Positions 10,266 through 28,857 of a stretch of DNA of 64,000 nucleotides are shown here, in pieces. Made by a program: the position numbers and the translations under genes. Origin of the DNA: Vibrio spartinae (GTDB lineage: Bacteria; Pseudomonadota; Gammaproteobacteria; Enterobacterales; Vibrionaceae). Where the stretch lies: assembly GCF_024347135.1 (NCBI RefSeq), contig NZ_AP024907.1, positions 1,789,001-1,853,000 of the forward strand, written 5' to 3'. Position 1 is the stretch's first letter; each line of letters begins with the position of its first letter. The notes under the pieces were generated by a model. The model searched no databases and had not been told where the DNA came from. It worked only from the letters and a program-made list of their open reading frames with translations.

Positions 10266-10340
10266 CTAAAGAAAGGAAATCGAAAGTACTGCCCGATTTT
10301 GTTATTGGGCAGTTATCTGTCTGGTTGATGCGAAGCGGCG

Positions 10341-11312: not shown

Positions 11313-11409
11313 AATTGTACTTCCTGCAAATCTTCTGAGATTTCCTGCAAACCAAATTATCACTGAATGACTTGTAATAGACAAACTATTCGATGACGAG
11401 AAGAACTAA

Positions 11410-13534: not shown

Positions 13535-14315
13535 TGGGTTCTACCCCGTTTTCACGGACGGTTTAGTAAAGACGTAAACTTGCTGTCTTGATTCGCCAGT
13601 CTACGTCGCATTCTTGGATTATGGAACCGTTCGATATAATCAAAAATATCTGCTCTGGCTTCATTTCTTGTCCGGTATTGTCGATAATTGATTCGTTCCC
13701 GTTTCATCACACCGAAGAACCCTTCACAAGCCGCGTTATCTGCACAATGGCCTACAGCACTCATGCTGCTGGTTAGGTTCTTTTGCTTGAGAAAGCGCTG
13801 ATAATCTCCGCTGGTAAATTGTGTGCCACGATCTGAATGTAAGATAACATGATGTCTTTCCTGTCGCTGCCAAACCGCCATTTCGACGGCTCGAATCACC
13901 ATATGACGGTCTTGTCGATGATGCATCGACCAGCCAACGATGAGCTTGTTAAACAGGTCAAGCACCACACACAGATAAAGCTTCCCTTCAAGTGTCCCAA
14001 TTTCTGTAATGTCTGTGACCCATTTGGTTTCCGGCTCCAAAGCATGAAAGTCCCGCTCAAGATGATTCTTTAAACCGTCAGGACGTGCGGACTGTCGCTT
14101 TGCCCCTCGACCTTTTTTACGCGGCCTGCCATAAAGTCCATTCGCTGACATCAGCCTGGCGACACGATTTAAGCTCGCTTGCAACCCTTCGGCTTGCAGA
14201 TCTTCGTGCATACGTGGTGCGCCGATAATACCACCGCTATCATCATGGATCTCGCGCATTCGTTTTAATAACGTTGCGTTAGCAAGAGCACGCGCACTTG
14301 GCTGACGTTCCACCC
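13535..14315 (-). pseudogene. Partial second copy of IS3 orfB and left end
   Basis: The 780 bases duplicate 14315-15094 and contain the last 250 or so codons of the transposase, including the DDE region, but lack its first 20 codons. The junction at 14315/14316 runs straight into GGGTTCTACCCC of the complete element. The leading T of that end is replaced by C. The frame is open but cannot give a normal transposase. Confidence 0.85.
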
Positions 14316-14331
14316 GGGTTCTACCCCGTTT

Positions 14332-15156
14332 TCACGGACGGTTTAGTAAAGACGTAAACTTGCTGTCTTGATTCGCCAGTCTACGTCGCATTCTTGGATT
14401 ATGGAACCGTTCGATATAATCAAAAATATCTGCTCTGGCTTCATTTCTTGTCCGGTATTGTCGATAATTGATTCGTTCCCGTTTCATCACACCGAAGAAC
14501 CCTTCACAAGCCGCGTTATCTGCACAATGGCCTACAGCACTCATGCTGCTGGTTAGGTTCTTTTGCTTGAGAAAGCGCTGATAATCTCCGCTGGTAAATT
14601 GTGTGCCACGATCTGAATGTAAGATAACATGATGTCTTTCCTGTCGCTGCCAAACCGCCATTTCGACGGCTCGAATCACCATATGACGGTCTTGTCGATG
14701 ATGCATCGACCAGCCAACGATGAGCTTGTTAAACAGGTCAAGCACCACACACAGATAAAGCTTCCCTTCAAGTGTCCCAATTTCTGTAATGTCTGTGACC
14801 CATTTGGTTTCCGGCTCCAAAGCATGAAAGTCCCGCTCAAGATGATTCTTTAAACCGTCAGGACGTGCGGACTGTCGCTTTGCCCCTCGACCTTTTTTAC
14901 GCGGCCTGCCATAAAGTCCATTCGCTGACATCAGCCTGGCGACACGATTTAAGCTCGCTTGCAACCCTTCGGCTTGCAGATCTTCGTGCATACGTGGTGC
15001 GCCGATAATACCACCGCTATCATCATGGATCTCGCGCATTCGTTTTAATAACGTTGCGTTAGCAAGAGCACGCGCACTTGGCTGACGTTCCACCCAAGCG
15101 TAATAACCACTAGGAGAGACGCGCAAACAACGGCACATGAGGCGAATAGAAAACAC
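14332..15156 (-). CDS. IS3-family transposase OrfB (DDE integrase domain)
   Basis: This is the complete 274-residue OrfB. It begins with the HTH_21-type region ([15 protein letters not shown]) and carries the rve integrase core with [17 protein letters not shown] (first D), [14 protein letters not shown] (second D) and the [15 protein letters not shown] segment (E). It cuts and joins element ends. OrfA lies 29 bp upstream. In this family, OrfA and OrfB are usually joined by -1 frameshifting to make the active enzyme; I did not locate the slippery site with confidence. Confidence 0.92.
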
Positions 15157-15185
15157 ATCGCGGCAACGCGATATCGCAAGATACC

Positions 15186-15479
15186 TTACGGTAACTCTTT
15201 GGCGAAGAACGTTGCCGCTTCTCGCAAAAAATCTCGTTCCTTTTTCACTTTCGCTAATTCGCGTTTTAGCCTCGCCATTTCTTCATCACGAGGAGAGCCA
15301 CTGCCTTGAAATGCTTTATCTTGTGACTGCTCCGCCTCTCGTTTCCAACGGTTTAATAAGTTAGGATTGATGCCGATATCTAATGCTATCTGACGACAAC
15401 TCACACCCGGTTGCTGAGTCAGCGCAACGGCTTCGCGTTTGAATTCTGCAGAATATTTTCTTCGCTTGGTCATAGACAC
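15186..15479 (-). CDS. IS3-family transposase OrfA (HTH protein)
   Basis: The 97-residue OrfA has the HTH_8 domain ([16 protein letters not shown] ... [21 protein letters not shown]) and a C-terminal leucine-zipper helix ([26 protein letters not shown]). It binds the inverted repeats and provides the N-terminal part of the fused transposase. The start at 15479 lies about 60 bp inside the right inverted repeat. It is intact. Confidence 0.92.
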
Positions 15480-15538
15480 TCCTTTTAGGCATAGTATGCC
15501 TCTTTATAGATGTGTCCGTAAAATATGGGTAGAACCCA

Positions 15539-15985
15539 AGTGATTTACTAAAGCTGCATGTATATGATGTTTCTTCGCAAGGAGTAATCTATGAAAGGGT
15601 TCAATGCATCCAGCAAAAAACTGGCACCGACGTCCACTACGGGATTACCCCGAGAACGCAACAAAGTATTAGCCGATGGATCTACTCGGCATCCTTAGAG
15701 GCAAGCAGTTTTTTGTTTCCAAGTGGTCGCCGAAAAGGACAACCTATCAGCTACTCATTCTATCGATCGATTATCAGGAACTGGGCAGTAAAACTTGGAT
15801 TGAATGCGGACTACTATGGCACTCATTCCATGCGCCGTACTAAAGCAACCTTGATCTATGCCAAAACAAAAAACATCAGAGCGGTACAGATTTTACTGGG
15901 GCACTCGAAGCTAGATAACACTATTCGTTACCTTGGAGTGGAACTGGAAGACGCTCTGAGGCTCTCAGAGCAAACAGACTGCTGA
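15539..15985 (+). pseudogene. Tyrosine recombinase (integrase), 5'-truncated
   Basis: The frame is open from the IS edge (SDLLKLHVYDV, then QQKTGTDVHYGITP) through FPSGRRKGQP and YGTHSMRRTKA to LLGHSKLDNTIRYLGVE. It retains the catalytic H-x-x-R, the second His (GHSKL) and the nucleophilic Tyr (IRYLG) of the phage-integrase fold. The first half, including the N-terminal core-binding domain and the first catalytic Arg, is missing because the IS junction cuts it. About 148 codons remain. It marks a former integrative element. Confidence 0.85.
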
Positions 15986-15996
15986 GGCTTGCTGAT

Positions 15997-16022
15997 ACAG
16001 GCTTTTCTCCTGAAAAGCCTGT
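15997..16022 (+). terminator. Hairpin after the integrase remnant
   Basis: Eleven-base perfect arms (ACAGGCTTTTC/GAAAAGCCTGT) enclose four bases. There is no U-tract, so termination is uncertain. It lies 12 bp past the integrase stop. Confidence 0.4.
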
Positions 16023-16116
16023 GCCCCAAAATCTTTCAGAGTAGTTATTCGACCGTATTCTGTTAATGAGATTTTCCCTATCAAAAGTAATGTTTGTAAC
16101 AAGGCAAGAATTGACC

Positions 16117-17199
16117 CTATCGGTCTTTCTTTGCAATTAATTCCTTTTGAGCATCTGATAAATTATTAATAAACTTGCTGCGTTGCACACTTAGAGATGA
16201 GTGTCCGTCAAGTTTGTGGTTATATAAATATTTTATACAACTATCTATCAAATTATATACATAATTTGTATTACCTAACTTTTCATCTAATTCGGTATCT
16301 TCTTTAAATAAATCAGATAATTTTGTGAAAATGGCTTCATGGTCGGATGTGGCATTTTCCTCATCTCTATAGCGAAATGCGTGATCACGTACCGCATACA
16401 AAGTCTTTACTAGCAATTCGTTATTAAAATACACTTTTAGTCCACGAGGTCCACTATAAAGTAAGCAATAGTCTAGTAAGTCGCTATATGGGAAAATATA
16501 GGGTTTATTTTTTTCTAGAAATGTGTTCCCAGTGAAAATTATTAGGTTGTCCAATATATATTTGAAGTGATGAACTTCTCTATTAATATAGAAAATATTC
16601 GAAAATAACATTTTATCGTCAAGGATTACATCTCCACTTTTATATTTTTTAATTTTTACAATGTGCAACTGATTTTTGAGTCTCATTACCCAAGTAACAA
16701 TATTGTCTAATTTATTGAAATCGACTGAAGTATAGGTAAGGATTTCTCTAACAAGGATTTGATAACAAGCAATTTTGTCTGATAACTCCCCACTGGAGCC
16801 TTTCTGTTTAATATCCACACTTGTGCTAAAGTTATTGAAGTTATTTTCTGGGAAAATAGATCTATAGAATCGATCTCGGTCTGTAAATTTATATCGATTT
16901 TCATAGGTTTGTTCTAACTCATCCAGAAGTTTCATAAATGCTTCTTTGTGAGACTGATACATTTGGATTCGTTGAAGAGCTTGTTGGTCTTCATGTTGTT
17001 TAGTTAGGAAGGTTAAAGTTTTTCGCGTAAAGTTTGCAGCAAAAATAGCTCCGAAAGCAGCAATTATAGCGGCTATAGCCGATAACCAGGCTGCACCTAT
17101 ATCAACGAAGACATTCATTGCTCCGCCTATAATTGCCCCTAACATAACTAGAAGGACAGCTACGGCGATTTTTAGGTAATACTTAAATTCATTTTGCAC
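16117..17199 (-). CDS. Two-TM membrane-anchored protein of unknown function
   Basis: The 360-residue protein begins with two membrane helices (about residues 9-30 and 34-56), followed by a long charged helix (RKTLTFLTKQHEDQQALQRIQMYQSHKEAF) and an alpha-helical cytoplasmic domain of about 270 residues. I recognise no catalytic motif. The gene is markedly AT-rich and stands alone on an island. Two-TM proteins with helical cytoplasmic domains occur among phage-defence effectors (for example retron or CBASS partners), but no reverse transcriptase, cyclase or toxin partner is adjacent, so no such role is assigned. The gene looks intact. Confidence 0.72.
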   Translation of the reverse strand: MQNEFKYYLKIAVAVLLVMLGAIIGGAMNVFVDIGAAWLSAIAAIIAAFGAIFAANFTRKTLTFLTKQHEDQQALQRIQMYQSHKEAFMKLLDELEQTYENRYKFTDRDRFYRSIFPENNFNNFSTSVDIKQKGSSGELSDKIACYQILVREILTYTSVDFNKLDNIVTWVMRLKNQLHIVKIKKYKSGDVILDDKMLFSNIFYINREVHHFKYILDNLIIFTGNTFLEKNKPYIFPYSDLLDYCLLYSGPRGLKVYFNNELLVKTLYAVRDHAFRYRDEENATSDHEAIFTKLSDLFKEDTELDEKLGNTNYVYNLIDSCIKYLYNHKLDGHSSLSVQRSKFINNLSDAQKELIAKKDR

Positions 17200-17783
17200 T
17201 TAAACACCCATTTACACCACTATACGCTTAATACATAGGATAACTCATTTTAATCCTTGCTGGACTGGTAAATCCAATGTTGGTAATAACAGGGACACAA
17301 AGATTAAGCTGAACGGAAAAGGACTGTAGTGACTGAGTAAAATTGACCACCATTTTAATTATTTCGAATACATTTTCTCATCCGAAATAGACGGATTTCA
17401 ATTCGTTTGCCAACTCAATTCTGTCCAATTCCTTTTTAAAAACTGACTGTCCCCAAATTCACTGATTCCTATGCTCAACATCCCAAAATCTCATACTTTT
17501 TTCATACTTTTGTCTATCGAAAAACTGATAGCCTGTGAATGCACTGGCAAAATCCAGTGTCGGGATTGAGACCCCTGTATTTTCTTCACAAGACATGTAA
17601 AATGCCAGCTCTGCTGATATTTTCATGTAACTTCAGCACACCTGAATTATGGTGGACTGGATAGGGGCGCTTTGGCGCACCGTTTCTTGTGAGCGGCTGT
17701 CTCAAACCTGTCCGGTTCGCCACTCAAAGTTTGAGACCTTTGTGTGGTGGTGTATCGTTCATCACAAGAAGAGGTTACAACCT
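17200..17783. other. Intergenic region, nothing certain
   Basis: This AT-rich stretch of almost 600 bp has no ORF with good initiation signals. The open frame beginning at 17649 enters the 61-aa gene below in frame, but its extra 45 codons have no ribosome site and look like leader sequence. Confidence 0.45.
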
Positions 17784-17969
17784 ATGTACGAAACCATCCC
17801 TTACGATCATCAATTCGCCCAAAAAGCCCGCGAATACCTGCGCCAGTTAGAAGAAATGTTTGAAGCCGAACAGCGGCACAACAGTCAAGAACTGCGCAAC
17901 GTGCTGCTGTATCTGAATAACCTGATTACCACCCATTACGTGCGCTATCATGAAGAGCCGGATGAGTAA
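17784..17969 (+). CDS. Small hypothetical protein, 61 aa
   Basis: The ORF starts at the ATG behind AAGAGG and encodes a charged helical protein (EYLRQLEEMFEAEQRHNSQELRNVLLYLNNL) ending in acidic residues. It has no signal or membrane segment. A strong terminator follows 36 bp after its stop, supporting a real transcription unit. Its codon use is richer in G and C than the flanking DNA. I do not recognise the family; similar small helical proteins are common on conjugative elements. Confidence 0.55.
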   Translation: MYETIPYDHQFAQKAREYLRQLEEMFEAEQRHNSQELRNVLLYLNNLITTHYVRYHEEPDE

Positions 17970-18004
17970 GATTGGTATGATGATTGATTGGTTTATTTAA
18001 TTTT

Positions 18005-18028
18005 CGAGCCGCAATTGCGGCTCGTTTT
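18005..18028 (+). terminator. Intrinsic terminator after the 61-aa gene
   Basis: Ten-base arms CGAGCCGCAA/TTGCGGCTCG meet without a loop insert and are followed by TTTT. The minus strand also has A/T-rich flanks, so it may work both ways. Confidence 0.75.
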
Positions 18029-18360
18029 GATCAAGTTCTAAGAGCCTGCTCTGATCGCGGGACTGAATCACATGCTGAGTATCGTAGGTGTATTGTTTGC
18101 GAGAAAATTTTGATGATTAAAACGGTGGTAACTATGCCCCTTTCCTTCTTAACGTAATTACTCAATAGCTGATCACGCCACTGGAATCACAGTACTTTTT
18201 GTTCATGACATACGGTTGAGGGGCGGTGCTCAAAACCTCCCCCAAAACCATTACGATTTAACATTTACCCTCTATTTTATATTTGCATAATAATTCGCTT
18301 GGACGATTTTCCAGTCTGGGTGGCGCAGTCCAGTTCCCTATTACACCGGATTTGATACAT
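18029..18360. other. Intergenic region with second copy of the dispersed repeat
   Basis: No gene is supported. Positions 18150-18208 resemble 11961-12019. The rest is low-information sequence between the terminator and the DUF1203 gene. Confidence 0.45.
18150..18208. repeat. Dispersed repeat, copy 2
   Basis: It shares TAACGTAATTACTCA and a AATCACxGTACTTTT..GTTCATG block with 11961-12019, in the same order and orientation, with substitutions between. Confidence 0.5.
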
Positions 18361-18834
18361 CTAGGTTCTATAAACAGTACAGTTGAAACAGCCAGGATTC
18401 GCATTATGAACCTGTAGGTATTTAACGTTGGGCTCGGTCAACTGATGGTAAATAATATTTTCCAAACCAGAAGCCAAAGTAGTTTCAGCATGAATCATAA
18501 TACTATCTTCACTATAAGCTCTTACCGACAGTAGTCGTTTAGTGAGTATTTCGGGAATTTCATTTATGTTCAATTTTGCCTCTACAGCATCTTCCCGAAT
18601 GAAAATGGGTCCAGAAGCTTTATATGGTGAGTTTACATCATGATATTTGTGCGGGATGAGTAAAACCCTCTCGCCAATCTCAGCTTCTTTTAAAGAGACT
18701 CGACATGGGAAACCAGGCTTTGAGTCTGCAATCAACCATTTTGCATTAAATTTTTCAAGTTGTTGATCGTTGAGGTTAAAGTATTCACTAAACATGCTCT
18801 TTTCAATTGGTTTTATAATAAAGTTTGTATTCAT
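18361..18834 (-). CDS. DUF1203 family protein
   Basis: The 157-residue protein ends in the family's conserved block (YLQVHNANPGCFNCTVYR), and its central part (GFPCRVSLKEAEIGERVLLIPHKYHDVNSPYKASGPIFIRE) is the usual DUF1203 core. Function is unknown. It has no signal peptide. It is a single gene divergent from ada, with about 190 bp between the starts. Confidence 0.85.
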   Translation of the reverse strand: MNTNFIIKPIEKSMFSEYFNLNDQQLEKFNAKWLIADSKPGFPCRVSLKEAEIGERVLLIPHKYHDVNSPYKASGPIFIREDAVEAKLNINEIPEILTKRLLSVRAYSEDSIMIHAETTLASGLENIIYHQLTEPNVKYLQVHNANPGCFNCTVYRT

Positions 18835-19024
18835 TAGGTTATACCTGATTAGCTATTTTGCTTTTGATGAATACTCATGCTAACGATGTGAACCGCTCTT
18901 AAACATCCGAAAATTGCGCCATATTCAAATTGAAGGGTTAATAAACATCCTCGAATTAACCAGCAAGAATCGGATGGTATCATCAAACTTGGTGTGATGA
19001 GATGCTGATGAATCACGCGACACA

Positions 19025-20095
19025 GTGAGCGTAGCTATGCCAAAGTTATCAGACAATGCAATGAAAAATGCGGTAGCGCAGAGAGATGGATCTTTTGACG
19101 GACATTTTTACTATGGCGTCATCACCACTGGTGTATTTTGTTCGCCTTCCTGTTCAACCAAAGCGGCAAATCCAGAAAACCTGAGATTCTTCTTAGACAT
19201 CGAATCTGCAATGCAAGCAGGTTTTCGTCCTTGTAAGCGTTGCAATCCAGCAGGACAGGACGAGCGTACTCAACAGCTAATCGATGTGGCTCGCCATATA
19301 GAAACTCATGCCGAAGACAAGATGACACTAACCCAGTTAGGCAATATTGCAGGATTTTCACCTTCCCGATTACAACGCTCATTTAAAGACATGTTTGGTG
19401 TGTCTCCCAAGCATTATCAGGATGCAGTGCGAATGCGAAAATTTAAGCGTTCGTTAAAAGAGGGGGAGAGTGTGACTGATGCGATTTATTCGTCAGGTTA
19501 TGGCTCAATAAGTCGGGTATATGGTGAAGCGACCAGAAATATAGGCATGACGCCAAAAGCATACAGAGCTGGCGGTAAGGGTGAAATTATCCATTATGCG
19601 TGTCGAGAGACAGCCCTTGGATACATGATAATGGCTGCGACAGATAAGGGGGTATGCTCGGTACAGTTTGGTGATGACAAAGATTCTTTGCTAACTTTGT
19701 TAGGTGACGAGTTTCCAGAGGCTCGGCTTGTACTTTCTGCGGCACAAGAGGCACCAGAGCTGGATAGCTGGATATTGGCTTTAGATCAGCATATTAGTCA
19801 GGGCGCTCCCAGACCCGATGTCCCTCTTGATATCAGAGGAACGGCATTCCAAATTAAGGTGTGGCAGTTTTTACTAAGTATCAAAGAAGGGGACGTGATG
19901 AGCTATGGTGAGGTTGCAGAGCATATTGATAATCCGAAGGCGGTTCGCGCTGTAGGAACGGCTTGTGGCAAAAACCCAGTTGGGATTCTTATCCCCTGCC
20001 ATCGAGTATTGCGCAACGACGGTTCTTTAGGAGGTTACCGCTGGGGACTAGAGCGCAAAAGAACATTGTTGGATATGGAAAGAGCAAAGCACTAA
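19025..20095 (+). CDS. ada: Bifunctional Ada: O6-methylguanine methyltransferase and AraC activator
   Basis: Ada repairs alkylated DNA by self-methylation and activates the adaptive response. Three parts are present. The N-terminal zinc domain has Cys39, Cys43, Cys70 and Cys73 (VFCSPSC, PCKRC), where the first Cys accepts methyl groups from phosphotriesters. A two-HTH AraC domain spans about residues 85-185. The C-terminal methyltransferase has PCHRV with Cys325 as the O6-methylguanine acceptor. Length 356 matches E. coli Ada (354). The GTG at 19025 gives the full family length; an ATG four codons later is equally possible. It sits within an accessory stretch, so it may have been acquired. 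Confidence 0.93.
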   Translation: MSVAMPKLSDNAMKNAVAQRDGSFDGHFYYGVITTGVFCSPSCSTKAANPENLRFFLDIESAMQAGFRPCKRCNPAGQDERTQQLIDVARHIETHAEDKMTLTQLGNIAGFSPSRLQRSFKDMFGVSPKHYQDAVRMRKFKRSLKEGESVTDAIYSSGYGSISRVYGEATRNIGMTPKAYRAGGKGEIIHYACRETALGYMIMAATDKGVCSVQFGDDKDSLLTLLGDEFPEARLVLSAAQEAPELDSWILALDQHISQGAPRPDVPLDIRGTAFQIKVWQFLLSIKEGDVMSYGEVAEHIDNPKAVRAVGTACGKNPVGILIPCHRVLRNDGSLGGYRWGLERKRTLLDMERAKH

Positions 20096-20314
20096 TTCAA
20101 CTGACCACTAGGATAAGTGAAATATTGAATACTCACTGATAAATCCTGCATTAAATGAATCTAATAGTGTTGGTGGAGAGTGGAAGATTTTATCCAGTTC
20201 CGCGTAAATCGTTCACCGCTGACAACGGTGGTCTTTGATGTTTTAGGATACGAAAAGTCATTTAAATATGCATAAATTATTGAATTAAGTGAAAAAACTT
20301 TATCCAAGAGTGAG
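20096..20314. other. Gap between convergent ada and exonuclease genes
   Basis: I see no ORF and no strong hairpin here. Confidence 0.4.
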
Positions 20315-20929
20315 TTAAACACGACTTTTAGCCAGTAGTCGGTTTACTTTCCCTTTTGCTGTTTTACTAACGGTTTGCATAAAGTGAAAGCTTGGATTGG
20401 CGATTCCTGACAGCTCTAAGTCTTCGACCATGTGAAGCCAAAGTTTGGCTGTCATTTGTGCATCAGCTAATGCTCGGTGAAAAACACCGTCGTTATCGAT
20501 GTTTTTGTAGCGAACCAGTTCACCTAGTTTGTATGACGGAGCATCTTGAATCAGTCTTCTTGCCACCAGTAATGAGCAACCGAATTCTCCTGCATAACCA
20601 CGGTTGATTCTTTCAAGCTCTGCGTCCAGAAATCGTTTATCGAACGAAGCGTTGTGAGCGATAAGGTTCTCATCGGCAATGAACTCACTAAAAGATATCA
20701 TTACCTCATCGCAGCTTGGCGCTGTTCGTAACATGGTATTGGTGATGCCGGTATAATTTTCAATGAATGAGCTTACTCTGAAGCCCGGATTCATTAGTTG
20801 TTGAAAACTATCGACAACCTCACCATCGACTAATTTCACCGCACCGATTTCAATTGCGCGGTCACCAAGGTTAGGAGAGAGGCCAGTGGTTTCAAAGTCG
20901 AGTACGATAACGGAATTGGCTTGAGGCAT
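20315..20929 (-). CDS. DEDDh 3'-5' exonuclease (DnaQ/epsilon-like)
   Basis: The product has the exonuclease motifs of the DnaQ fold: Exo I VLDFETTGLSP, Exo II HNASFDKRFLDAE, and Exo III with HRALADAQMTAKLW. It is a stand-alone enzyme of about 204 residues, not the replicative epsilon subunit, because the polymerase-binding tail is absent. I start at the ATG giving MPQANSVIVLDFE; an upstream start adds four residues. Its role (repair or nucleic acid scavenging) is not determined by context. Confidence 0.87.
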   Translation of the reverse strand: MPQANSVIVLDFETTGLSPNLGDRAIEIGAVKLVDGEVVDSFQQLMNPGFRVSSFIENYTGITNTMLRTAPSCDEVMISFSEFIADENLIAHNASFDKRFLDAELERINRGYAGEFGCSLLVARRLIQDAPSYKLGELVRYKNIDNDGVFHRALADAQMTAKLWLHMVEDLELSGIANPSFHFMQTVSKTAKGKVNRLLAKSRV

Positions 20930-21200
20930 GACGTTTTCCAACTAAACACGAATGTGTAAGAGTATCATCGAAGGCGATAGAAAAATAAAGGCGATTAGGG
21001 CGCTGTCCAGCTTTTCTATACCTGAGATTCAAGTGTCCTAAATAATCTAAGCCGATCCTAAACTGAATTTGGTTGCCCTTATATGGCACTCAGGCGCATT
21101 CAATGTACCCGACAATCACAGCGGTATGATTGCAATATCTTGTGCCTATCAACAAAAGTATTCCTGAGCTTTCATCACGTTCAAATAATTATTAATAAAA

Positions 21201-21226
21201 ATGTAAATAATCGGATTAATTTACAT
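21201..21226. promoter_or_regulatory. Candidate operator palindrome
   Basis: Eight-base perfect arms ATGTAAAT/ATTTACAT surround a ten-base centre that itself holds AATC/GATT. It lies about 80 bp upstream of the likely -35 of the cassette, where an activator or repressor dimer could bind. The regulator is unknown, and no regulator gene lies in the cassette. Confidence 0.45.
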
Positions 21227-21306
21227 ATTTATCATTAACATGTTATTAACATAGTTGGCTAATTTAGTACAGGGTTAAATGAGCGTTGTTAACATTCACC
21301 CTACTC

Positions 21307-21335
21307 TTGAAAAACGTTTTGTTCGAAAATATTTA
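21307..21335 (+). promoter_or_regulatory. Likely promoter of the six-gene cassette
   Basis: TTGAAA (21307-21312) and TATTTA (21330-21335) are spaced by 17 bp, giving a start near 21342 and a leader of about 24 nt before the first ATG. This is a sequence match only. Confidence 0.45.
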
Positions 21336-21365
21336 TATTCAAACGTTAGGGAGTAATTATAGGTT

Positions 21366-22652
21366 ATGGAATCAAGAAATATTGCCATTGTCGGTGGTGG
21401 TGTTGGAATGCTGTCAATTTTAGATCACCTTAGTAAACAGGTTGATGGTATATGTAATATTTCAGTTTTTATGAAAAATACGACTGGTATTGGTGAAGCG
21501 TATCGTTTTGCTCCAGATGAGTTAATCATGAATACTCGAAATGACAGCATCAATTTTTTCGATCATATTGTCGATTTTAAACAATGGCTAAAGAAACATC
21601 ATAACGACATTTCTTCTGAGTTTGAATTTATACCCCGACGTATATTTGGTTCTTATTTACACTTGGTGAAAAAGAAAATTCTGAATAAATTTCGATTGAA
21701 AGGACATAGAGTTGAATTCCGGGAGGAAATAAAAGAGATTGATAAAAAAGGTACTATTGTAACTCAAAATGGTGATTATAAATATTTTAGTGCAATATTT
21801 GTATCTGTTGGTTTTGGCACAGATACAGCGATTAAAGAAAATACGATTAAAATCAGAAATATTCCTAAAAATGGCATTTTAAATATTGTTGGTTCTGGTT
21901 TGTCTGCTATAGATTGGATCATTTTAACTAACAGTATACGTCCAGATATTTTTATTAATGTTGTCTCGAAAAGTGGATTGTTCCCTGCGGTTAGAAGTTC
22001 TTTTTCATCGAGTGATTATCCCAATATTATTGAATCTAATGAGGAGCTGATTAAAAAACCGGATTTAATTAAATTCTTAAAAATACTCAGAAATGAATGT
22101 AAGAAAGATATTAATTACGGTTTGGATGATTTTATTAATCTATTGATACCCAATAGGAGTCTTTCTGAAGAGCTAAGTATTGCACAGAAAAGAATACCTG
22201 TTTGGCAACCTCTATTATATCGTTCAACAGTAAATTACAAGGATTTTTTTAAAGCATTACCTGAATATCAAAAGAAATATTTGTTGAAACGACGTTCTAA
22301 ATTTATAAATAGAAGAGGAATGTTTCCAGTTAAGAATGCGAAAATTATTCATGAATTAATTGAATCAAATCGTTTAAAGATCGAATCAAAAACCATTCCA
22401 GATGATGAAATTAGTGCTATAGATACAATTAACTGCACAAATGATAATTTGGCAATGTATGAATTTTTAGATCGAATAAATATAGACTGTTTAGATCGGA
22501 ATAAAATAGTTAATAATAATTTCAAAGCATGTGTATCTAGAAATTTATATCTACTTGGTCCGGCAACGAATACAGTTAACTTTTTTACCGAAGTCTCATC
22601 TCTTACGTATGTTCATGCTGAACATGCAGTAAAAGATTATTTAAACCATTAA
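21366..22652 (+). CDS. YdhS-like FAD/NAD(P)-binding protein, cassette gene 1
   Basis: The 428-residue protein belongs to the FAD/NAD(P)-binding group with the NAD_binding_9 fold (COG4529/YdhS-like). The dinucleotide motif VGGGVGM is at 9-15, the group mark GIGEAY at 41-46 and MNTRND at 55-60. A second Rossmann motif GSGLSAID (176-183) would bind NAD(P)H. The closing YLLGPATNTVNFFT is typical of flavin contact. Related proteins are oxidases or monooxygenase-like enzymes, but most are uncharacterised. It is strongly AT-rich, more so than the aldolase gene behind it. It is first in an operon, 16 bp ahead of gene 2. The substrate is unknown. Confidence 0.8.
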   Translation: MESRNIAIVGGGVGMLSILDHLSKQVDGICNISVFMKNTTGIGEAYRFAPDELIMNTRNDSINFFDHIVDFKQWLKKHHNDISSEFEFIPRRIFGSYLHLVKKKILNKFRLKGHRVEFREEIKEIDKKGTIVTQNGDYKYFSAIFVSVGFGTDTAIKENTIKIRNIPKNGILNIVGSGLSAIDWIILTNSIRPDIFINVVSKSGLFPAVRSSFSSSDYPNIIESNEELIKKPDLIKFLKILRNECKKDINYGLDDFINLLIPNRSLSEELSIAQKRIPVWQPLLYRSTVNYKDFFKALPEYQKKYLLKRRSKFINRRGMFPVKNAKIIHELIESNRLKIESKTIPDDEISAIDTINCTNDNLAMYEFLDRINIDCLDRNKIVNNNFKACVSRNLYLLGPATNTVNFFTEVSSLTYVHAEHAVKDYLNH

Positions 22653-22668
22653 TGAAAGGAGAAAGTAA

Positions 22669-23448
22669 ATGGTTATCAAGCAATATGAAAAAAACATATT
22701 TAAGTCACGTCTGAAAAATGGTGAAAAGCTACATGGTCTGTGGTTTTCTTCATGTAGCCCAATTATTGCAGATGTCATTCGTGACTCGGGTTATGACTGG
22801 GTACTGATTGATATGGAACATTCTATCAACACGACAGAAAGTGTGAGTAACATTCTGCGTTGTTTCCGTGATAGCGATACTGCGCCGATTGTCCGGCCAC
22901 CTGTAAACGATCCTGTAGAAGTAAAGCGCTTACTGGATGCTGGTGTTAGAAACTTTCTATTTCCACTGACGGAGTCTGTAGAAATGGCAGAGCAGGCTGT
23001 TGCATCGACGCGTTATAAAGCAAAAGGCGGTCTTCGTGGTGTATCTCTGGGACAGTCAGCCAACCATTTTGGGCGAATTGCCGATTATTTCGATAAAGCG
23101 AACGATGATATTACGGTGATCCTCCAGGTTGAAAGTACTCAGGCCGTTTCACTTGTTCCACAATTGGCATCGGTGGAAGGTGTTGATGGTATTTTCGTCG
23201 GCCCTGCCGACTTATCTGATGATATGGGGAAAACCGGAAAAACTTTTGAAGGGGACGTTCAGGAAGTAATCAATGACTTTGTTCAATTATGTAAGGCTTC
23301 GTCTATTCCTGCTGGCTCTCTGATTTTCAATGAGGAAGTGGCTGAACAGTATTATTCAAAGGGATTCAGTTTTATCTCTTGTGCAAGTGACATCTCGTTA
23401 TTACGAAATGCAGCTGATGCACAAGTGAAGAAGTTTTCTAATGAATAA
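22669..23448 (+). CDS. HpcH/HpaI-type class II aldolase, cassette gene 2
   Basis: The 259-residue enzyme keeps every HpaI catalytic residue in register: Arg76, His51 and metal ligands Glu155 and Asp181 match E. coli HpaI Arg70, His45, Glu149 and Asp175, all shifted by six. Signatures are LIDMEHS, RPPVNDP, LQVEST and FVGPADLS. Such enzymes reversibly join pyruvate or a related 2-oxo acid to an aldehyde, giving a 4-hydroxy-2-oxo acid. The staphylococcal citrate synthase SbnG shares this fold, so a different condensation is possible. AAGGAG precedes the ATG. Its base composition is less AT-rich than genes 1 and 3. Confidence 0.85.
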   Translation: MVIKQYEKNIFKSRLKNGEKLHGLWFSSCSPIIADVIRDSGYDWVLIDMEHSINTTESVSNILRCFRDSDTAPIVRPPVNDPVEVKRLLDAGVRNFLFPLTESVEMAEQAVASTRYKAKGGLRGVSLGQSANHFGRIADYFDKANDDITVILQVESTQAVSLVPQLASVEGVDGIFVGPADLSDDMGKTGKTFEGDVQEVINDFVQLCKASSIPAGSLIFNEEVAEQYYSKGFSFISCASDISLLRNAADAQVKKFSNE

Positions 23449-23459
23449 GGTATAAAATA

Positions 23460-24455
23460 ATGGAGATGGTTGATCTATCGTTGGGTATACCGAATTCCCC
23501 AAAAAAACATTCGGATATAATTTCGAAAGTAATATTTAGTGAGGGTGTGTTCTGCGATAGATATCCATCTTCATTACTATCTTCTGAATTAGAAATAGTG
23601 GATAGTTGTTTTCTGAATAAACTTGGCCTTGATGTTTTTTGTGATAAAAATTTAAGTGTTCATCATGGAGGTAGAGGAGCACTGTTTACAGTATTATCAT
23701 GTCATTTAAATCATGAAAATGTAAATATTGATACGTCATATCCATATTGGAATGGTTATAACTCAATCGTTAAATCTATAAATGAAAACTCTATGATTAA
23801 CAACATGGATAATCAAAGTAATAGTCAAGTGTCTTTATTATGCTTACCTAACAATCCTGATGGCTCTTTGGATATTGAAAGATTAAATTATTGCTTAAAA
23901 AATTATGAACATGTTGTTATTGATTTGGTTTATTTTAACTTTTTGGATGCTTTTGAAATTAAGTCTATTTCAGATGTACTCATGGGTCGAAATAACTATT
24001 CTTTGATTTTTAGTGTATCGAAACATAGTGCTTCTCCCAATGTGCGTGTTGGTTATGTTTATACACCATCTACTGAATTATCGGCAAAGTATAGAGCCTT
24101 TCAGTTTAATATATCTAACTTGCCATCAAATATTAATCGTACAGTCGCTGTTTATCATCTGATGCAAGAAGAAAGAAATCTGATGATTACAGATTATTAC
24201 AATCGCATTTCATTTGAAATCAATAATATTCAAAGCTATCCAGGGATTAGGATTTGTGCAAAAGGTATGTTTGTTTGGATTACATGTGATAAGAAAAAAT
24301 CAAAATACATTGTGGATGCTATTTTATCCGAATTGAATATTAAAGGAGCTTTAGGCGATAGCTTTGGAGACGAATATGGTTCGAGGTGGTTAATTAAAGA
24401 TGGTGTTGATTATAAAAAATTGATTGAAAGAATTTATTATCTAAACAAGGGGTAG
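23460..24455 (+). CDS. PLP-dependent aminotransferase-fold enzyme, cassette gene 3
   Basis: The 331-residue protein has fold type I class I/II aminotransferase features: HHGGRGALFTVLS (cofactor phosphate region), CLPNNPDGS, the PLP lysine Lys188 in FSVSKHSASPNVRVGYVY, and a C-terminal FVWITC segment. The lysine motif resembles those of alliinases and tryptophan-aminotransferase-related proteins as much as histidinol-phosphate aminotransferases, so transamination or C-S lyase/decarboxylase chemistry are all possible. It is short for the family. It begins 11 bp after gene 2. Next to an aldolase making a 2-oxo acid, amination to an amino acid is the simplest reading (inference). The gene is very AT-rich. 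Confidence 0.78.
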   Translation: MEMVDLSLGIPNSPKKHSDIISKVIFSEGVFCDRYPSSLLSSELEIVDSCFLNKLGLDVFCDKNLSVHHGGRGALFTVLSCHLNHENVNIDTSYPYWNGYNSIVKSINENSMINNMDNQSNSQVSLLCLPNNPDGSLDIERLNYCLKNYEHVVIDLVYFNFLDAFEIKSISDVLMGRNNYSLIFSVSKHSASPNVRVGYVYTPSTELSAKYRAFQFNISNLPSNINRTVAVYHLMQEERNLMITDYYNRISFEINNIQSYPGIRICAKGMFVWITCDKKKSKYIVDAILSELNIKGALGDSFGDEYGSRWLIKDGVDYKKLIERIYYLNKG

Positions 24456-24458
24456 TAT

Positions 24459-24830
24459 ATGCGTGATGTTATTTTTAAACAAAACTTACTCAATGACGTA
24501 AATCAAATTAGTTGGTCACCAATGAACACGGATGGTCGACTTGGGGTAAACATTTGTGAAATTTTCAATGATATATCATTTGGAGAACACGGTTCCCGGT
24601 TAGCAATACTGAATTATGAACCTGGGGCTTTAGTTCCTAAGCACCTACACACTGGTTACGAGATGATTTTTATGCTCGATGGTGAACTTTTTGATGACTA
24701 TGGTACTTATTCGAAAGGAGACCTTGTTGCGTATCAACCAAATTCGGAACATTCCCTTTCAACTCGTTCAGGATGTACTTTCCTAGTCTTATGGGAAAAG
24801 CCAGCGATCAGTATTCAGGGAGATGCTTAA
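24459..24830 (+). CDS. Single-domain cupin, cassette gene 4
   Basis: The 123-residue protein is a small cupin resembling the ChrR cupin family. The metal-binding pattern is complete: His62 and His64 in PKHLHTGYE, Glu68, and His98 in PNSEHS. Metal cupins of this size act as dioxygenases, isomerases, epimerases or sensors; the reaction here is unknown. It starts 3 bp after gene 3 and its stop overlaps the start of gene 5 (TAATG), so translation is probably coupled. Confidence 0.78.
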   Translation: MRDVIFKQNLLNDVNQISWSPMNTDGRLGVNICEIFNDISFGEHGSRLAILNYEPGALVPKHLHTGYEMIFMLDGELFDDYGTYSKGDLVAYQPNSEHSLSTRSGCTFLVLWEKPAISIQGDA

Positions 24831-26101
24831 TGTCTCATAAAGACGTCCAGCGTATGGCCAATATTCTTTCTGGAGTAAATGTAATTGATATCGTTGGCTT
24901 TGGAAGTTGTATGTCTCCTGATTACTTGTTCAAACTGATGATTCAATCTAAGAACCTATCGAACCGAAACAAAAAGTACGGATTTATATGTCCGACTTTT
25001 CCCGGTTCGGGAATGAATGGTGGTATCAATGAATTAGCCGACAGTGGTTTAATCGAATGGACGATTGGTGGATTCTATGGTGCGGCCCGAAAATTAGGGC
25101 TTGATATTTCAAGAGGGATCATCGACGGATATACCATACCTCAAGGGGTTGTCAGTCACTTGTTAACTCATCCTGAACGAACAATGTGTTCAGATATTGG
25201 CTGTGGAACATTGGTCGATCCTCAATGCCGGGGAGGGGCTTTAGGGGATGTACCGAAATTGACCCCTGTCAGGTCAATAGAAAAGCCACAATTAAATCAA
25301 TCCGGGATGCTGAGTTTTACATTGCCTGATTCAGATTTGGTATTGATGCGTGGTGCTGGCTTTACTGATAGTGGAGACATTATTTTAGAGTCATTTCCAA
25401 TTCATCTTGATTTAAAGGATATTTTAATTTCTGCAAAAATCAGAGGTGCTAAGGTCGTCATTCAGGTTCCGGATTTGCAGCAAGTGCCATCAATTGATTC
25501 AAATTGCGTATCGCCGGATTTGTTTGATGCAGTATTGATCTCACCACCGGCATACCATCAGGATACCTATCGATCTGAGTATTCGAGGCATTCAACCGAT
25601 GGAAAACTCTTTCGTCAGAATGATGTTGTTGACGAATTAGCGGTCCAACTAAGACAAAGACTAAATCCACATGAGCGCATCATTGCAGGTATTGGTTTAC
25701 CCGTCGCTGCAGTCAACACGATCAATGATCCATATGAGAAATACTGTGTCTCTGTTGAGTCAGGCAATATTGGAGGGTATCCAATAGACGGAATAGGATT
25801 TGGCATATCAATAAATCCTCAGAATATTATCTCTCAAAAAGCGATGTTTTCTGATATTTGGTCTGGGAAATTTGATCATGCTTTGCTCGGTGTCGGAGAT
25901 ATGGATGATGATGGAAATATTTATGTTGCAAAGCTTGGTGAGCAAACATTTGGTATCGGAGGATTTATAGATATTGTTAATAGCGTCAATAAAATTACTT
26001 TTGTTGGGAGGAAAGGAAAGAAAAAATTTCAATATCCAAAAAGTGAATGGGTGTGTTATAAACATAACTGTAACACTGATGTTAAATATATTTTGGCTTA
26101 G
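24830..26101 (+). CDS. Compact family I CoA-transferase (YdiF/Pct-like), cassette gene 5
   Basis: The 423-residue protein fuses both CoA-transferase halves. The first half has VGFGS, GYTIPQGVVSHLL, GCGTLVDPQCRGG and LMRGAGFTDSGD; the second has LISPPAYHQ, IAGIGLPVAAV, then VESGNIGG and LLGVGDMDDDGNIYV. Glu310 in the ESG motif is the expected catalytic residue that carries CoA. Acetate or propionate CoA-transferases of this type are about 520 aa, so this one is roughly 100 residues shorter. It would move CoA between acids, activating a carboxylic acid. The start is the ATG overlapping the cupin stop; an upstream in-frame start at 24773 lies inside the cupin gene and is rejected. Confidence 0.85.
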   Translation: MSHKDVQRMANILSGVNVIDIVGFGSCMSPDYLFKLMIQSKNLSNRNKKYGFICPTFPGSGMNGGINELADSGLIEWTIGGFYGAARKLGLDISRGIIDGYTIPQGVVSHLLTHPERTMCSDIGCGTLVDPQCRGGALGDVPKLTPVRSIEKPQLNQSGMLSFTLPDSDLVLMRGAGFTDSGDIILESFPIHLDLKDILISAKIRGAKVVIQVPDLQQVPSIDSNCVSPDLFDAVLISPPAYHQDTYRSEYSRHSTDGKLFRQNDVVDELAVQLRQRLNPHERIIAGIGLPVAAVNTINDPYEKYCVSVESGNIGGYPIDGIGFGISINPQNIISQKAMFSDIWSGKFDHALLGVGDMDDDGNIYVAKLGEQTFGIGGFIDIVNSVNKITFVGRKGKKKFQYPKSEWVCYKHNCNTDVKYILA

Positions 26102-26121
26102 TTGAGGTAAGGATATTCCTA

Positions 26122-26748
26122 ATGGTTGAGTATAATTCCCTGTTTGCTTTTTTCGTTTTAGCAGTTGTTGCAACCCTGTCACCCGGACCTGCTGTTTTGT
26201 TGGCAATATCGAATGGTGCCAATCTTGGCGTCAGAAAGGCTGTGATTGGCATCTTTGGTAATGTATCAGCCATGATTTTCTATGCGACGTTCGCATCGCT
26301 AGGGATGGGGGTTCTGATTAACGAAGGTGGAGAATTTTTACTGAGATGTATACAGTTTGCCGGAGGACTCTATTTATGTTACCTCGGTTATAAATCCATC
26401 GTGTCAGTAAGGACGAATAAACCCCTTTCAGAACCCCACCAGTCACAAGGGATCTCTGTATTCACAAAGGCTGCACTTGTGGGATTATCAAATCCAAAGG
26501 CTATCATTTTCTTTTCTGCACTTTTTCCTCAATTTATTAATAATCAGGGTGATTTTTTAGTTCAAACGACAATATTGACCTCGATCTTTGCTGGTTGTTC
26601 TTTTTCAGCACTCACGATGTATGCATTCCTTTCTAGCAAAATATTTGTTGGCAGAAATAATAAATGGTTTAATTTTATTAATAAACTATCTGGTGTCATA
26701 TTCATGTGTTTTGGTATTGCACTCATGGGGAATAGTATAAAAAATTAA
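26122..26748 (+). CDS. LysE/RhtB-family exporter, cassette gene 6
   Basis: This 208-residue inner-membrane protein has six predicted helices and the family signature near the start (VATLSPGPAVLLAISNG) and in the middle (AALVGLSNPKAIIFFSALFPQF). LysE/RhtB proteins export amino acids and similar compounds using the proton gradient. It lies 20 bp after the CoA-transferase gene on the same strand. As the last gene of the cassette, it probably exports the product or a toxic intermediate (inference). AT-rich like genes 1 and 3. Confidence 0.88.
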   Translation: MVEYNSLFAFFVLAVVATLSPGPAVLLAISNGANLGVRKAVIGIFGNVSAMIFYATFASLGMGVLINEGGEFLLRCIQFAGGLYLCYLGYKSIVSVRTNKPLSEPHQSQGISVFTKAALVGLSNPKAIIFFSALFPQFINNQGDFLVQTTILTSIFAGCSFSALTMYAFLSSKIFVGRNNKWFNFINKLSGVIFMCFGIALMGNSIKN

Positions 26749-26814
26749 GCATAAGATGGGAGGATAGGGCAAGGTCGTGAACATTATTTGAACAAAACAG
26801 ATCAGTTTGACGAT

Positions 26815-26995
26815 CACATCTTGCTGTAGCCATTTTTACGGTTTGGTTGCTCGCAATCTTCCAGATGTTGTTCGAGTTCCGCCTTTAAGGCGGCTTCGGT
26901 GAGCTGTTTGATGAGAGGAGTAAGAAAGCCGGTCTTGTCCCGACTGAAGAGCTTTAAGAGCTTGTTCTAGATCGAAGTTTGTGGTCAGTGTGTCA
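26815..26995 (-). pseudogene. IS256-family transposase N-terminal relic
   Basis: In two minus-strand frames the sequence reads DTLTTNFDLEQALKALQSGQD and then KTGFLTPLIKQLTEAAL, AELEQHLEDCEQPNRKNGYSK, which is the start of an IS256-type transposase. A frameshift lies between the two parts, the initiating codon is not in frame, and the rest of the gene is missing. No inverted repeats were found. Confidence 0.75.
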
Positions 26996-27044
26996 TTCCT
27001 GTTTTATACATATTACTGAAATAACAGAGATTTCTAAACACTAC

Positions 27045-27779
27045 CTAAGATGGAATCAATAATTTTTTATATTGCTCTTTCATATATTGCTCCGCTTTTT
27101 GGATTTTATATCGAATCTTAGAGCGGAGCCAACTGTCTTGAAACCAATGTCTATCAACTTCAGTGCTTCCATATATTTCTGTTGCAATTTGTTTGTGTGA
27201 CTTTTTTGAATTTCTCATATCTAATATTATTAAATATTCTAAATATTTTCTATTGGCTTCTTTGAAAGGTATACTGCCAGAAGTGTTAATAACTTGATTT
27301 ACAATCCGAATGATTTCTGATATGTACAGTTCTGGCAAATTGGCAGATATAAGTAACATACCTTGTTCACTTAGTAGTTGATTTTTATTGTCGGAATATA
27401 ATTGTATCATTTCACCATTATTAGATAATGAAACAATACTATTATCATTTTCTAAATGTATAATTTTTTTCGTACCATCAAATTTGCTTAGATCAACATA
27501 AATATCCCATTTAGATTTAAAGTGATTTTCTCCCAAGCTGACAAACCTCAGGTATCTCCCTATATCAATGCAGTTCCAAATAACCTCCCTGACATCTTCA
27601 ATTTGTGGATCGCAGTATGAGAGTAATCCCCAGCGTTTCGCATTTTTACTATGTATCCACTTGATATTATCTTGCTCTTTCTTTAGGTATTTCCACTCAT
27701 TGATGTAGTCTGGATTTCTTCTTAAAAACTCCCAAGCCAAAGATAAATTACTGATCGTTGTACTACTATGTTGTGTCAT
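27045..27779 (-). CDS. DUF6499/DUF2285 DNA-binding-type regulator
   Basis: The 244-residue protein starts with LSLAWEFLRRNPDYINEW, the mark of the DUF6499 transcriptional-regulator-like domain, and ends with a DUF2285 segment (YLEYLIILDMRNSKKSHKQIATEIYG ... WLRSKIRYKIQKAEQYM) that forms a helix-turn-helix. Such proteins are frequent on integrative conjugative elements, where they act as regulators. Here its conjugation partners are absent. It is AT-rich and stands between transposase relics. The gene appears full length for the two-domain form. Confidence 0.78.
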   Translation of the reverse strand: MTQHSSTTISNLSLAWEFLRRNPDYINEWKYLKKEQDNIKWIHSKNAKRWGLLSYCDPQIEDVREVIWNCIDIGRYLRFVSLGENHFKSKWDIYVDLSKFDGTKKIIHLENDNSIVSLSNNGEMIQLYSDNKNQLLSEQGMLLISANLPELYISEIIRIVNQVINTSGSIPFKEANRKYLEYLIILDMRNSKKSHKQIATEIYGSTEVDRHWFQDSWLRSKIRYKIQKAEQYMKEQYKKLLIPS

Positions 27780-27900
27780 ATTGTTCTCATTATTCTGAAT
27801 TAAAACCGATTAATGTTATCAATATGTTGATTTATGTGCTTTTTTATGTAAAGACAACTCTTTTTTGACCAAAGATATGGTGGAATGATTGCGTAATCCC
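27780..27900. other. Upstream of DUF2285 gene
   Basis: AT-rich, presumably with the promoter of the leftward regulator; nothing else is visible. Confidence 0.35.
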
Positions 27901-28056
27901 GGTAGGCCTGAGTTGCTAAAGAACCCAACCCGAGCAAGGTTGTACGTCGCATTAACTCGCGCACGTCATAGTGTTGCTATTGTGCTAGACCCTAATGAAG
28001 AAGAAGTATTCGAAGGGGCTACTGATCCGCACCAGCAGTTTTGGACATCGAGTTAA
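27901..28056 (+). pseudogene. UvrD/Rep-type helicase, C-terminal fragment
   Basis: The frame encodes PELLKNPTRARLYVALTRAR followed by HSVAIVLDP and ends QQFWTSS-stop. YVALTRAR is motif VI of superfamily 1A helicases. Only about 50 codons remain, with a stop just upstream, so the body of the gene is lost. The parent may have been a DNA-repair or defence helicase; the fragment is too short to tell. Confidence 0.65.
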
Positions 28057-28084
28057 GTGAGTACAATCACTAACGAGGTGAACC

Positions 28085-28361
28085 ATGACAAGCAAGAAAA
28101 AACTTATTATCCATTCTCCTGAATTTAAAGCAGAAGCCCTGAATCTAGCAGAGAAAGTGGGAGTTGCTGTGGCAGCTAGACTGCTCGGGTTACACGAATC
28201 CCAGATCTACGGTTGGCGTAAGGCAGTCAAGAAAGACACCAATACCAGTCAGCGAGAAAAAGATTGAAGTCGCCAAGCTCAAAAGGCAATTGGCTGAGCA
28301 AGCTGAGGAGCTAGATATAGTAAAAACAGCCACCTACTTCGCGAAAAATCTAAAGTAGATT
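28085..28361 (+). pseudogene. IS3-family OrfA relic, frameshifted
   Basis: Frame 1 gives an HTH protein (HSPEFKAEALNLAEKVGVAVAARLLGLHESQIYGWRKAV) that stops early at 28267. The next frame continues with the leucine-zipper helix (KIEVAKLKRQLAEQAEELDIVKTATYFAKNLK). A one-base shift in the run of A near 28255 separates them. A good ribosome site precedes the ATG, but the product is broken. It is a different IS3 lineage from the element at 13535-15538. Confidence 0.75.
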
Positions 28362-28372
28362 GCTACGAATTT

Positions 28373-28678
28373 ATGCTCGAACACCTGCTGTGCTTCAATG
28401 TTGTCCGTATGGCTAAGGTGTTTGGGGTTTCTCGAAGTGGTTTTTATTACTGGATTAAGCTCCGCCACAAGGCCATCCAGCGCGAAGCTAATCAGCAAGA
28501 GCTAGCTGAGAACGGTAATAGCCATAATGTCAAAACCATTGCCGCCAGTATGAGGCGTCAGGATTTGACTCCGAAAGCCGCACGCAAGTTTAAATGTACA
28601 ACGGACAGCAAGCATAAAATGCCTGTCGCTCCAAACCTGTTGGCTCAGGACTTTCTTTTGAGCCTAGTTTCCTACTGA
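28373..28678 (+). pseudogene. IS3-family OrfB relic with internal deletion and truncation
   Basis: The frame begins like an OrfB (MLEHLLCFNVVRMAKVFGVSRSGFYYWIK) and resumes at NSHNVKTIAASMRRQDL and KFKCTTDSKHKMPVAPNLLAQDF. Some residues of the HTH_21 region between QQEL and NSHN appear deleted, and the whole DDE integrase core is absent. It pairs with the broken OrfA just upstream and is inactive. Confidence 0.75.
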
Positions 28679-28682
28679 AAAT

Positions 28683-28713
28683 GCTTGAGCGAGAACACTG
28701 TTCTCGCTCAAGC
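28683..28713. repeat. Perfect 14-bp inverted repeat
   Basis: Arms GCTTGAGCGAGAAC/GTTCTCGCTCAAGC are perfect with a three-base loop, just past the OrfB relic. There is no U-tract on either side, so it is not an obvious terminator. It could be an element end, a recombination site or a hairpin-forming target. Confidence 0.55.
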
Positions 28714-28810
28714 CTCCACAGAAAGTTTGTTTGCTATCTAATTAGTTATCGAACTGCAAACTTGGCAAGGCACAGGTGTTCAGATTAGTATTGGAAGAAG
28801 ACAGAGAATT

Positions 28811-28857
28811 TGGTGGCCCCTCGCAGACTTGAACTGGGGACCCATCGATTATGAGCC
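28811..28857 (-). tRNA. 3' half of a tRNA-Ile(CAU)-like gene (fragment)
   Basis: Reading the minus strand from about 28857 gives the anticodon loop CTCATAA, a T-arm with TTCAAGT, the acceptor 3' strand GAGGGGCC and an encoded CCA end. This matches the 3' half of tRNA-Ile2 (CAU anticodon, modified to lysidine). The 5' half is missing and the T-stem has one mismatch, so it is not functional. tRNA 3' ends are common attachment sites, so this is probably a residual att site of an integrated element. It overlaps the last codons of the adjacent DUF2867 gene. Confidence 0.7.

Follow-up and report, generated by a model that had tools for sequence, protein, structure and literature searches.

An unusual six-gene orphan operon, possibly for a small molecule, on a genomic island of Vibrio spartinae

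The cassette and its genomic island

The window analyzed here is a 64,000-nucleotide stretch of Vibrio spartinae DNA (contig NZ_AP024907.1, positions 1,789,001 to 1,853,000), part of a 4.0 Mb contig in a genome of 5.19 Mb. A flanking sequence matches nrdA of four Vibrio records at 73-74% and, over a short stretch, that of a Moellerella record at 72%; in several relatives two marker genes are carried on separate large contigs. Both observations agree with a Vibrio-like host. Six open reading frames (ORFs) on its + strand form a cassette at window positions 21366-26748, and all six frames are intact. Gene 1 (21366..22652) encodes a class B flavin-monooxygenase-like protein of 428 residues that belongs to the family of flavin adenine dinucleotide (FAD)/NAD(P) proteins PF13454. 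It is followed by a class II pyruvate aldolase of the HpaI/GarL family (gene 2, 22669..23448, 259 residues; HpcH_HpaI, 5e-39), a short, divergent fold-type I pyridoxal phosphate (PLP) enzyme (gene 3, 23460..24455, 331 residues; Aminotran_1_2, PF00155, 5e-6), a small ChrR-type metal cupin (gene 4, 24459..24830, 123 residues; Cupin_7, 6e-13), a compact family I coenzyme A (CoA)-transferase (gene 5, 24830..26101, 423 residues; NCBIfam FadX, 2e-26; YdiF structure 2ahu, 1e-27) and a LysE/RhtB-family exporter (gene 6, 26122..26748, 208 residues; LysE, 4e-31). Pfam matches of genes 1-4 and 6 exceed the curated cut-offs, and gene 5 has no Pfam match. None of the six proteins reaches a curated NCBIfam cut-off, and these matches accordingly name no exact function.

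The genes are separated by 16, 11, 3, -1 and 20 bp, the -1 junction between genes 4 and 5 being a TAATG overlap, and purine-rich stretches precede the gene starts. Outside the cassette, same-strand pairs with gaps of 20 bp or less make up 8 of the 52 neighboring ORF pairs in the window; assuming independence, five consecutive tight junctions would arise by chance with a probability of about 9e-5, a rough figure derived from a mechanical ORF list. Promoter-like and terminator-like sites were no commoner than in shuffled sequence. The guanine plus cytosine (G+C) content of the cassette is 35.8%, compared with 44.6% outside the island described below. A role in anti-phage defence was rejected, as no PADLOC defence model matched the six proteins or two neighbors (0 families at E <= 0.01).

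The cassette lies within a stretch of approximately 21.8 kb (7089..28848, unstranded) that is absent from the matching site in three relatives (loci L053, L054, and L056). The flanking genes (window 6408-7088 and 28849-30297) have aligned ends about 70 bp apart in L054 and about 35 bp apart in L056, and are separated by an exonuclease gene in L053; a further locus, L055, is centred on the exonuclease gene alone and does not contain the flanking pair. Because the flanking genes are neighbors in three relatives, the stretch is most simply read as an insertion, in agreement with the acquired island proposed in the preliminary description of this DNA.

The island contains an IS3-type (insertion sequence) transposase, an integrase fragment, an Ada gene, an exonuclease and regulators. 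The transposase ORFs lie at 13552-15479 (one, tested against Pfam, matches rve and HTH_21) and the phage-integrase fragment at 15713-15985. A further IS3-like remnant near the right edge of the island (approximately 28080-28678) was recognized by eye and has no Pfam match. Just downstream of the cassette, on the opposite strand, a protein encoded at 27045-27779 with RovC DNA-binding and proteobacterial regulator-like domains is a possible regulator. The Ada-type alkylation repair gene (19025-20095) is located 1.27 kb upstream of the cassette. It is an extra copy, 34% identical to a second one in the same genome (G000:C1:1409419); none of six same-genus relatives matched it at E <= 1e-40, and one of three same-order genomes gave a 35% match.

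Active sites of genes 2 to 5

The catalytic and cofactor residues sought were present in genes 2-5, as was Asn56 in gene 1. In the aldolase, His51, Arg76, Asp90, Glu155, and Asp181 are retained, including the catalytic His and Arg and the metal-binding Glu and Asp; each lies six positions beyond its HpaI counterpart (45, 70, 84, 149, and 175). Its NCBIfam scores are 230.2 bits for HpaI (cut-off 368.8) and 234.8 bits for GarL (cut-off 406.75). Gene 3, with weak matches to HisC/CobD/LL-DAP-aminotransferase-like proteins, carries by motif Asn132, Asp155, Tyr158, Lys188, Arg196, and Arg309, among which Lys188 is presumably the Schiff-base lysine, Asp155 the PLP-binding aspartate and Arg309 the carboxylate-binding arginine of a fold-type I enzyme. 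Family I CoA-transferases carry their catalytic Glu in an ExG motif. Gene 5, approximately 30% identical to YdiF and FadX, keeps Gln105 and this Glu (Glu310), whose motif VESGNIGG aligns with VETGPIGG of YdiF. The preliminary description had listed six same-strand genes with the gaps given above: a YdhS-like FAD/NAD(P) protein, an aldolase with all its catalytic residues, an enzyme of the PLP aminotransferase fold, a metal cupin, a compact CoA-transferase with its catalytic Glu and a LysE/RhtB exporter. These coordinates, gaps, families and residues were verified.

The named families closest to genes 2 and 5 (HpaI, GarL, FadX, YdiF) have catabolic roles, and the cassette may be read as an operon for catabolism or detoxification. 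A nitrogen compound would then be opened by the flavoenzyme, the cupin and the PLP enzyme, the CoA-transferase would activate an acid, the aldolase would cleave a 4-hydroxy-2-oxo acid to pyruvate and an aldehyde, and the LysE protein would remove a toxic intermediate. A Skermanella plasmid also speaks for such a role, as its region for sugar-acid catabolism carries a CoA-transferase gene about 4 kb from an HpaI-type gene. However, no importer is found beside the six genes, the sole transporter belongs to an export family, and the relatives of gene 1 mostly adjoin exporter-type proteins, as detailed in the next section. We regard a catabolic operon as unlikely.

The metal-ligand pattern of the cupin is His62, His64, Glu68, and His98, a His/His/Glu/His set common to many cupins. 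It resembles in type the ligands of the cupin PyrN (His50, His52, Glu56, His90), and sets of an N-hydroxylase, a zinc cupin and a MetRS-like protein make N-N bonds (PMC8664883). With the cupin encoded near an N-hydroxylase-like gene, a hydrazine-forming pathway can be envisaged in which gene 1 would N-hydroxylate a substrate, the CoA-transferase would activate it and the cupin would form the N-N bond. This is highly improbable: the ligand set is shared by many cupins, the only structural matches of the cupin at E <= 0.01 are ChrR and DddK, and no MetRS-like gene was found among the six.

The flavoenzyme and its relatives

Gene 1 alone matched no flavoprotein of known structure. Combined with ten relatives as a profile, it matched 38 distinct structure chains at 0.01, mostly flavin-containing monooxygenases (FMOs), ferredoxin reductases and FSP1, and also ornithine monooxygenase (3s5w, 8e-4). 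The two best matches are an FMO and 8cp2, the L-aspartate N-hydroxylase of Streptomyces sp. V2 with bound aspartate (PMC10404684). In that enzyme Asn62 sits above C4a of the flavin and is described as critical for class B monooxygenases (PMC10404684); counted along the alignment, it corresponds to Asn56 of gene 1. Asn56 and Arg91 are invariant in gene 1 and all ten relatives (11 of 11), as are Gly10 (in GGG) and Gly176 (in GSGLSAID) of the dinucleotide-binding motifs for FAD and NADPH. The best reading of gene 1 is an enzyme like the class B flavin N-monooxygenases. It had been called YdhS-like, which named the right family (PF13454, 4e-17) and understated the protein, since FMOs and the aspartate N-hydroxylase are the nearest matches of its family profile.

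A true aspartate N-hydroxylase is an improbable identity for gene 1, because Arg13 of the aspartate chamber aligns with Val13 (the other Arg positions are not aligned). The likeness to this enzyme type (8CP2/8CP5; CreE/FzmM) consists of the profile match over the FAD domain and the Asn62/Asn56 pair. The two proteins differ in length (428 residues in gene 1, 616 by the numbering in PMC10404684), and no lyase gene is found among the six.

Relatives of gene 1 were collected by a pattern search of an 84,980-species collection with one ten-residue family motif, in which 47 stretches led to 13 distant relatives. Further relatives came from a Pantoea stewartii plasmid and two same-order genomes (G864 and G972), and we grouped all of them into eight lineages. 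At 9 of 13 loci tested, no more than two genes separate the flavoenzyme from a protein predicted to span the membrane at least six times, counting that protein's own gene; the same holds for 11 of the 88 other genes of those loci; restricted to the same strand, the counts are 7 of 13 and 8 of 88. Three near-duplicates (L033, L042, L046) and the window were left out of these counts. By lineage, an exporter-type neighbor is present in six of the eight (Jeotgalibaca, Vibrio/Photobacterium, Mixta, Jeotgalicoccus, Pantoea, and G972) and absent from Salinicoccus and Xenorhabdus/Moellerella, the membrane protein of Moellerella, more than 2 kb away, being scored as absent at lineage level.

Pfam searches on one member per lineage identified these neighbors as EamA proteins (Jeotgalibaca, Photobacterium, Mixta and, under the cut-off, G972), MFS proteins (Jeotgalicoccus, Pantoea) and a LysE protein (Photobacterium). 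Four of the eight lineages have ATP-grasp, 2-oxoglutarate oxygenase, haem-oxygenase-like or PLP genes nearby: ATP-grasp in Pantoea, Photobacterium and, under the cut-off, G972; a WelO5-like 2-oxoglutarate oxygenase and an AlaX-like editing protein in Photobacterium; and a haem-oxygenase-like enzyme, an aminotransferase and a TauD dioxygenase in Mixta. Such neighbors are typical of pathways to small modified amino acids or dipeptides. The exporter-type neighbors speak for a pathway that makes a modified amino acid and exports it. The Lys/Orn monooxygenase model is matched above its cut-off by the flavoenzymes of L036 and L032, and just under it by the Pantoea relative.

One gene cluster is shared by Photobacterium halotolerans (L036:7149-12916) and Vibrio mimicus CAIM 602 (L035:7147-12919). 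It comprises a WelO5-like 2-oxoglutarate oxygenase, an AlaX-like protein, a LysE protein, a PF13454 flavoenzyme, an EamA protein and an ATP-grasp enzyme, the families having been tested on L036 only. Its appearance is that of a cluster for an amino-acid antimetabolite in which a tRNA-editing gene gives self-resistance. In V. mimicus the ORF of the flavoenzyme is shorter (420 residues compared with 471). The cluster shares the flavoenzyme family (about 25% identity to gene 1) and the LysE exporter with the cassette, L035 and L036 being, at 1e-3, the only loci of relatives with a counterpart of any of genes 2-6. In a Mixta sp. (L039:281-6610, at the end of a short contig), a PF13454-family flavoenzyme lies near EamA, haem-oxygenase-like, aminotransferase, second flavoprotein and TauD dioxygenase genes. 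On the Pantoea stewartii plasmid pCN101 (L026:11974-15885), a PF13454 flavoenzyme, an ATP-grasp protein and an MFS exporter are encoded as a unit of three genes that follows mobilization genes.

A candidate pathway and its standing

Gene order, intact frames, protein families, most catalytic residues and the island are observed features of the locus. We favor the reading that the cassette is an acquired operon making and exporting a small modified amino acid, likely an N-oxidized gamma-hydroxy-alpha-amino acid or a cyclized derivative, at slightly less than an even chance (about 0.48). This reading draws on the tight operon of six intact genes, the largely intact active sites, and the profile match of gene 1 to 8cp2 with its Asn62/Asn56 alignment. 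We infer the substrates, the order of steps and the product as follows. The HpaI-type aldolase would join pyruvate to an aldehyde, giving a 4-hydroxy-2-oxo acid that the PLP enzyme would aminate. The class B flavoenzyme would oxidize the nitrogen with NADPH and O2. The CoA-transferase would activate a carboxylate, which could drive closure of a lactone or hydroxamate ring or an acylation, and the cupin may contribute a rearrangement or an oxidation; the LysE/RhtB protein would export the product. No simpler pathway was conceived that employs all six proteins. The preliminary description had proposed production and export of a small hydroxy- or oxo-amino acid or a derivative. That proposal fits most of the data, including the neighborhoods of gene 1 relatives, with the substrates and product staying at the level of prediction.

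Parts of this scheme have precedents. A homoserine-type route uses a class II pyruvate aldolase followed by an aminotransferase. The reaction of such an aldolase with formaldehyde to 2-keto-4-hydroxybutyrate is known chemistry (PMC10992282), and the side-by-side aldolase and aminotransferase classes and the RhtB-family exporter of the cassette recall that pyruvate-plus-formaldehyde route; the cassette differs in adding a flavoenzyme, a cupin and a CoA-transferase. A LysE exporter also belongs to the antimetabolite clusters amb (PMC4357302) and gvg (PMC8064604), which share with the cassette the logic of a small modified amino acid. The six genes include neither a formyltransferase (gvgI) nor a nonribosomal peptide synthetase (NRPS) and instead have an aldolase and a CoA-transferase; the main text on FVG never uses the word "aldolase" (PMC8064604). 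A relative of gvg/FVG or amb was rejected on gene content. In the ham cluster (fragin/valdiazen), too, an N-oxygenase occurs together with a cupin protein and an aminotransferase, but its N-oxygenase is AurF-like, it needs an NRPS, and neither aldolase nor CoA-transferase is named in the description available (PMC11659414). A ham/valdiazen-type cluster was rejected on the grounds of the AurF-like N-oxygenase and the NRPS.

It is interesting to speculate on a bolder version, an NRPS-free pathway new to science, in which an aldolase-made hydroxy amino acid would be N-oxidized and converted by the CoA-transferase and cupin to an exported N-O or N-N reactive amino acid, the Ada protein protecting the producer. 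A self-protective role of Ada for the host of the cassette is conceivable, although the G+C content of the Ada gene differs from that of the cassette; the version as a whole is a long shot.

Recurrence was followed with gene 3 as the most specific marker, in genome draws that overlap and each count the home genome. No ortholog of gene 3 was found outside the home genome among 196 genus, 369 class and 325 family genomes. At a looser limit, four of 100 relatives matched, these being the home genome and three general aminotransferase matches (2e-4 to 4e-4). Gene 5 matched 18 of the 369 class genomes including the home genome, the rest at 28-32% identity. Gene 1 matched only itself among 299 phylum genomes at 1e-10, and a two-row profile of it found two distant relatives besides itself among 247 order genomes. 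When the 84,980-species collection was scanned, 23 stretches matched one of six low-degeneracy gene 5 peptides, none of them a relative, and the family motif of gene 1 gave no ortholog; these are weak negatives, and short-motif scans may miss orthologs that vary in those stretches. Nothing was found in the viral contigs scanned or, by megablast, in E. coli genomes. On plasmids, at 1e-8, gene 3 had no match and gene 1 a single distant relative, while genes 2 and 5 had many general-family matches, all at identities under 60%. Title and abstract searches of the open-licence literature found no cluster with this combination, and a search by Pfam accession returned no papers; the earlier statement that the set has no recognized pathway holds within those word searches.

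Several observations weigh against a single biosynthetic pathway. A second copy of the cassette was not found in the genomes, plasmids and collections searched, which leaves the six genes without comparative support as a unit, and no relatives of genes 2-5 were found at the loci of gene 1 relatives, the P. halotolerans and V. mimicus cluster included (tblastn, 1e-3). Gene 1 of the window itself has no membrane protein within two genes, its exporter lying five genes downstream, whereas 13 of 40 other window genes do. The match to 8cp2 spans the FAD domain only, and the profile also picks up ferredoxin reductases and FSP1, together with a few chains that match by chance. A C-terminal ATG-type motif with glycine is typical of class B N-hydroxylating flavin monooxygenases; the glycine is present in 10 of 10 relatives and the corresponding residues in gene 1 are INCTND, in a loose alignment. 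Gene 5 differs from YdiF and FadX in gene context and in lacking about 100 C-terminal residues of such homologues, so that its C-terminal domain is incomplete. With only 20 bp between the stop of gene 5 and the exporter gene, a broken-off end would not fit there. Because of the missing residues, gene 5 is graded only as probably a working CoA-transferase. Finally, G+C content is uneven along the operon (about 30% in genes 1 and 3, about 38-43% in genes 2 and 4-6), which allows a patchwork origin.

The cassette could accordingly be a patchwork of separately acquired, co-transcribed genes, or a decaying cluster, that serves no single pathway. The lack of co-occurrence in the searches, the uneven G+C, the truncated CoA-transferase and the IS and integrase remnants on the island all fit such an origin, and the lost C-terminal motif of gene 1 both strengthens it and weakens the biosynthetic reading. 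However, a patchwork poorly explains why all six ORFs are intact, are spaced by only -1 to 20 bp and have kept most of their active sites, and a run of five tight junctions has the low chance probability given above. We consider a patchwork or decaying cluster decidedly unlikely, and an operon that makes and exports a modified amino acid the better account.

The preliminary description proved correct in what it described, and no other reading is better than its broad inference. Its claim of a new system is not established, as co-occurrence elsewhere was negative in the searches run; what is established is a single, unusual orphan cassette, not yet a recurrent system. This orphan small-molecule operon of unusual composition would, if its product is a new amino-acid antimetabolite or signal, offer in six small genes an easy route to a new natural product and to new enzyme chemistry. 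If the reading is true, a little-studied family of small flavoenzymes, encoded beside exporter-type proteins in several unrelated bacteria, would gain a testable function.

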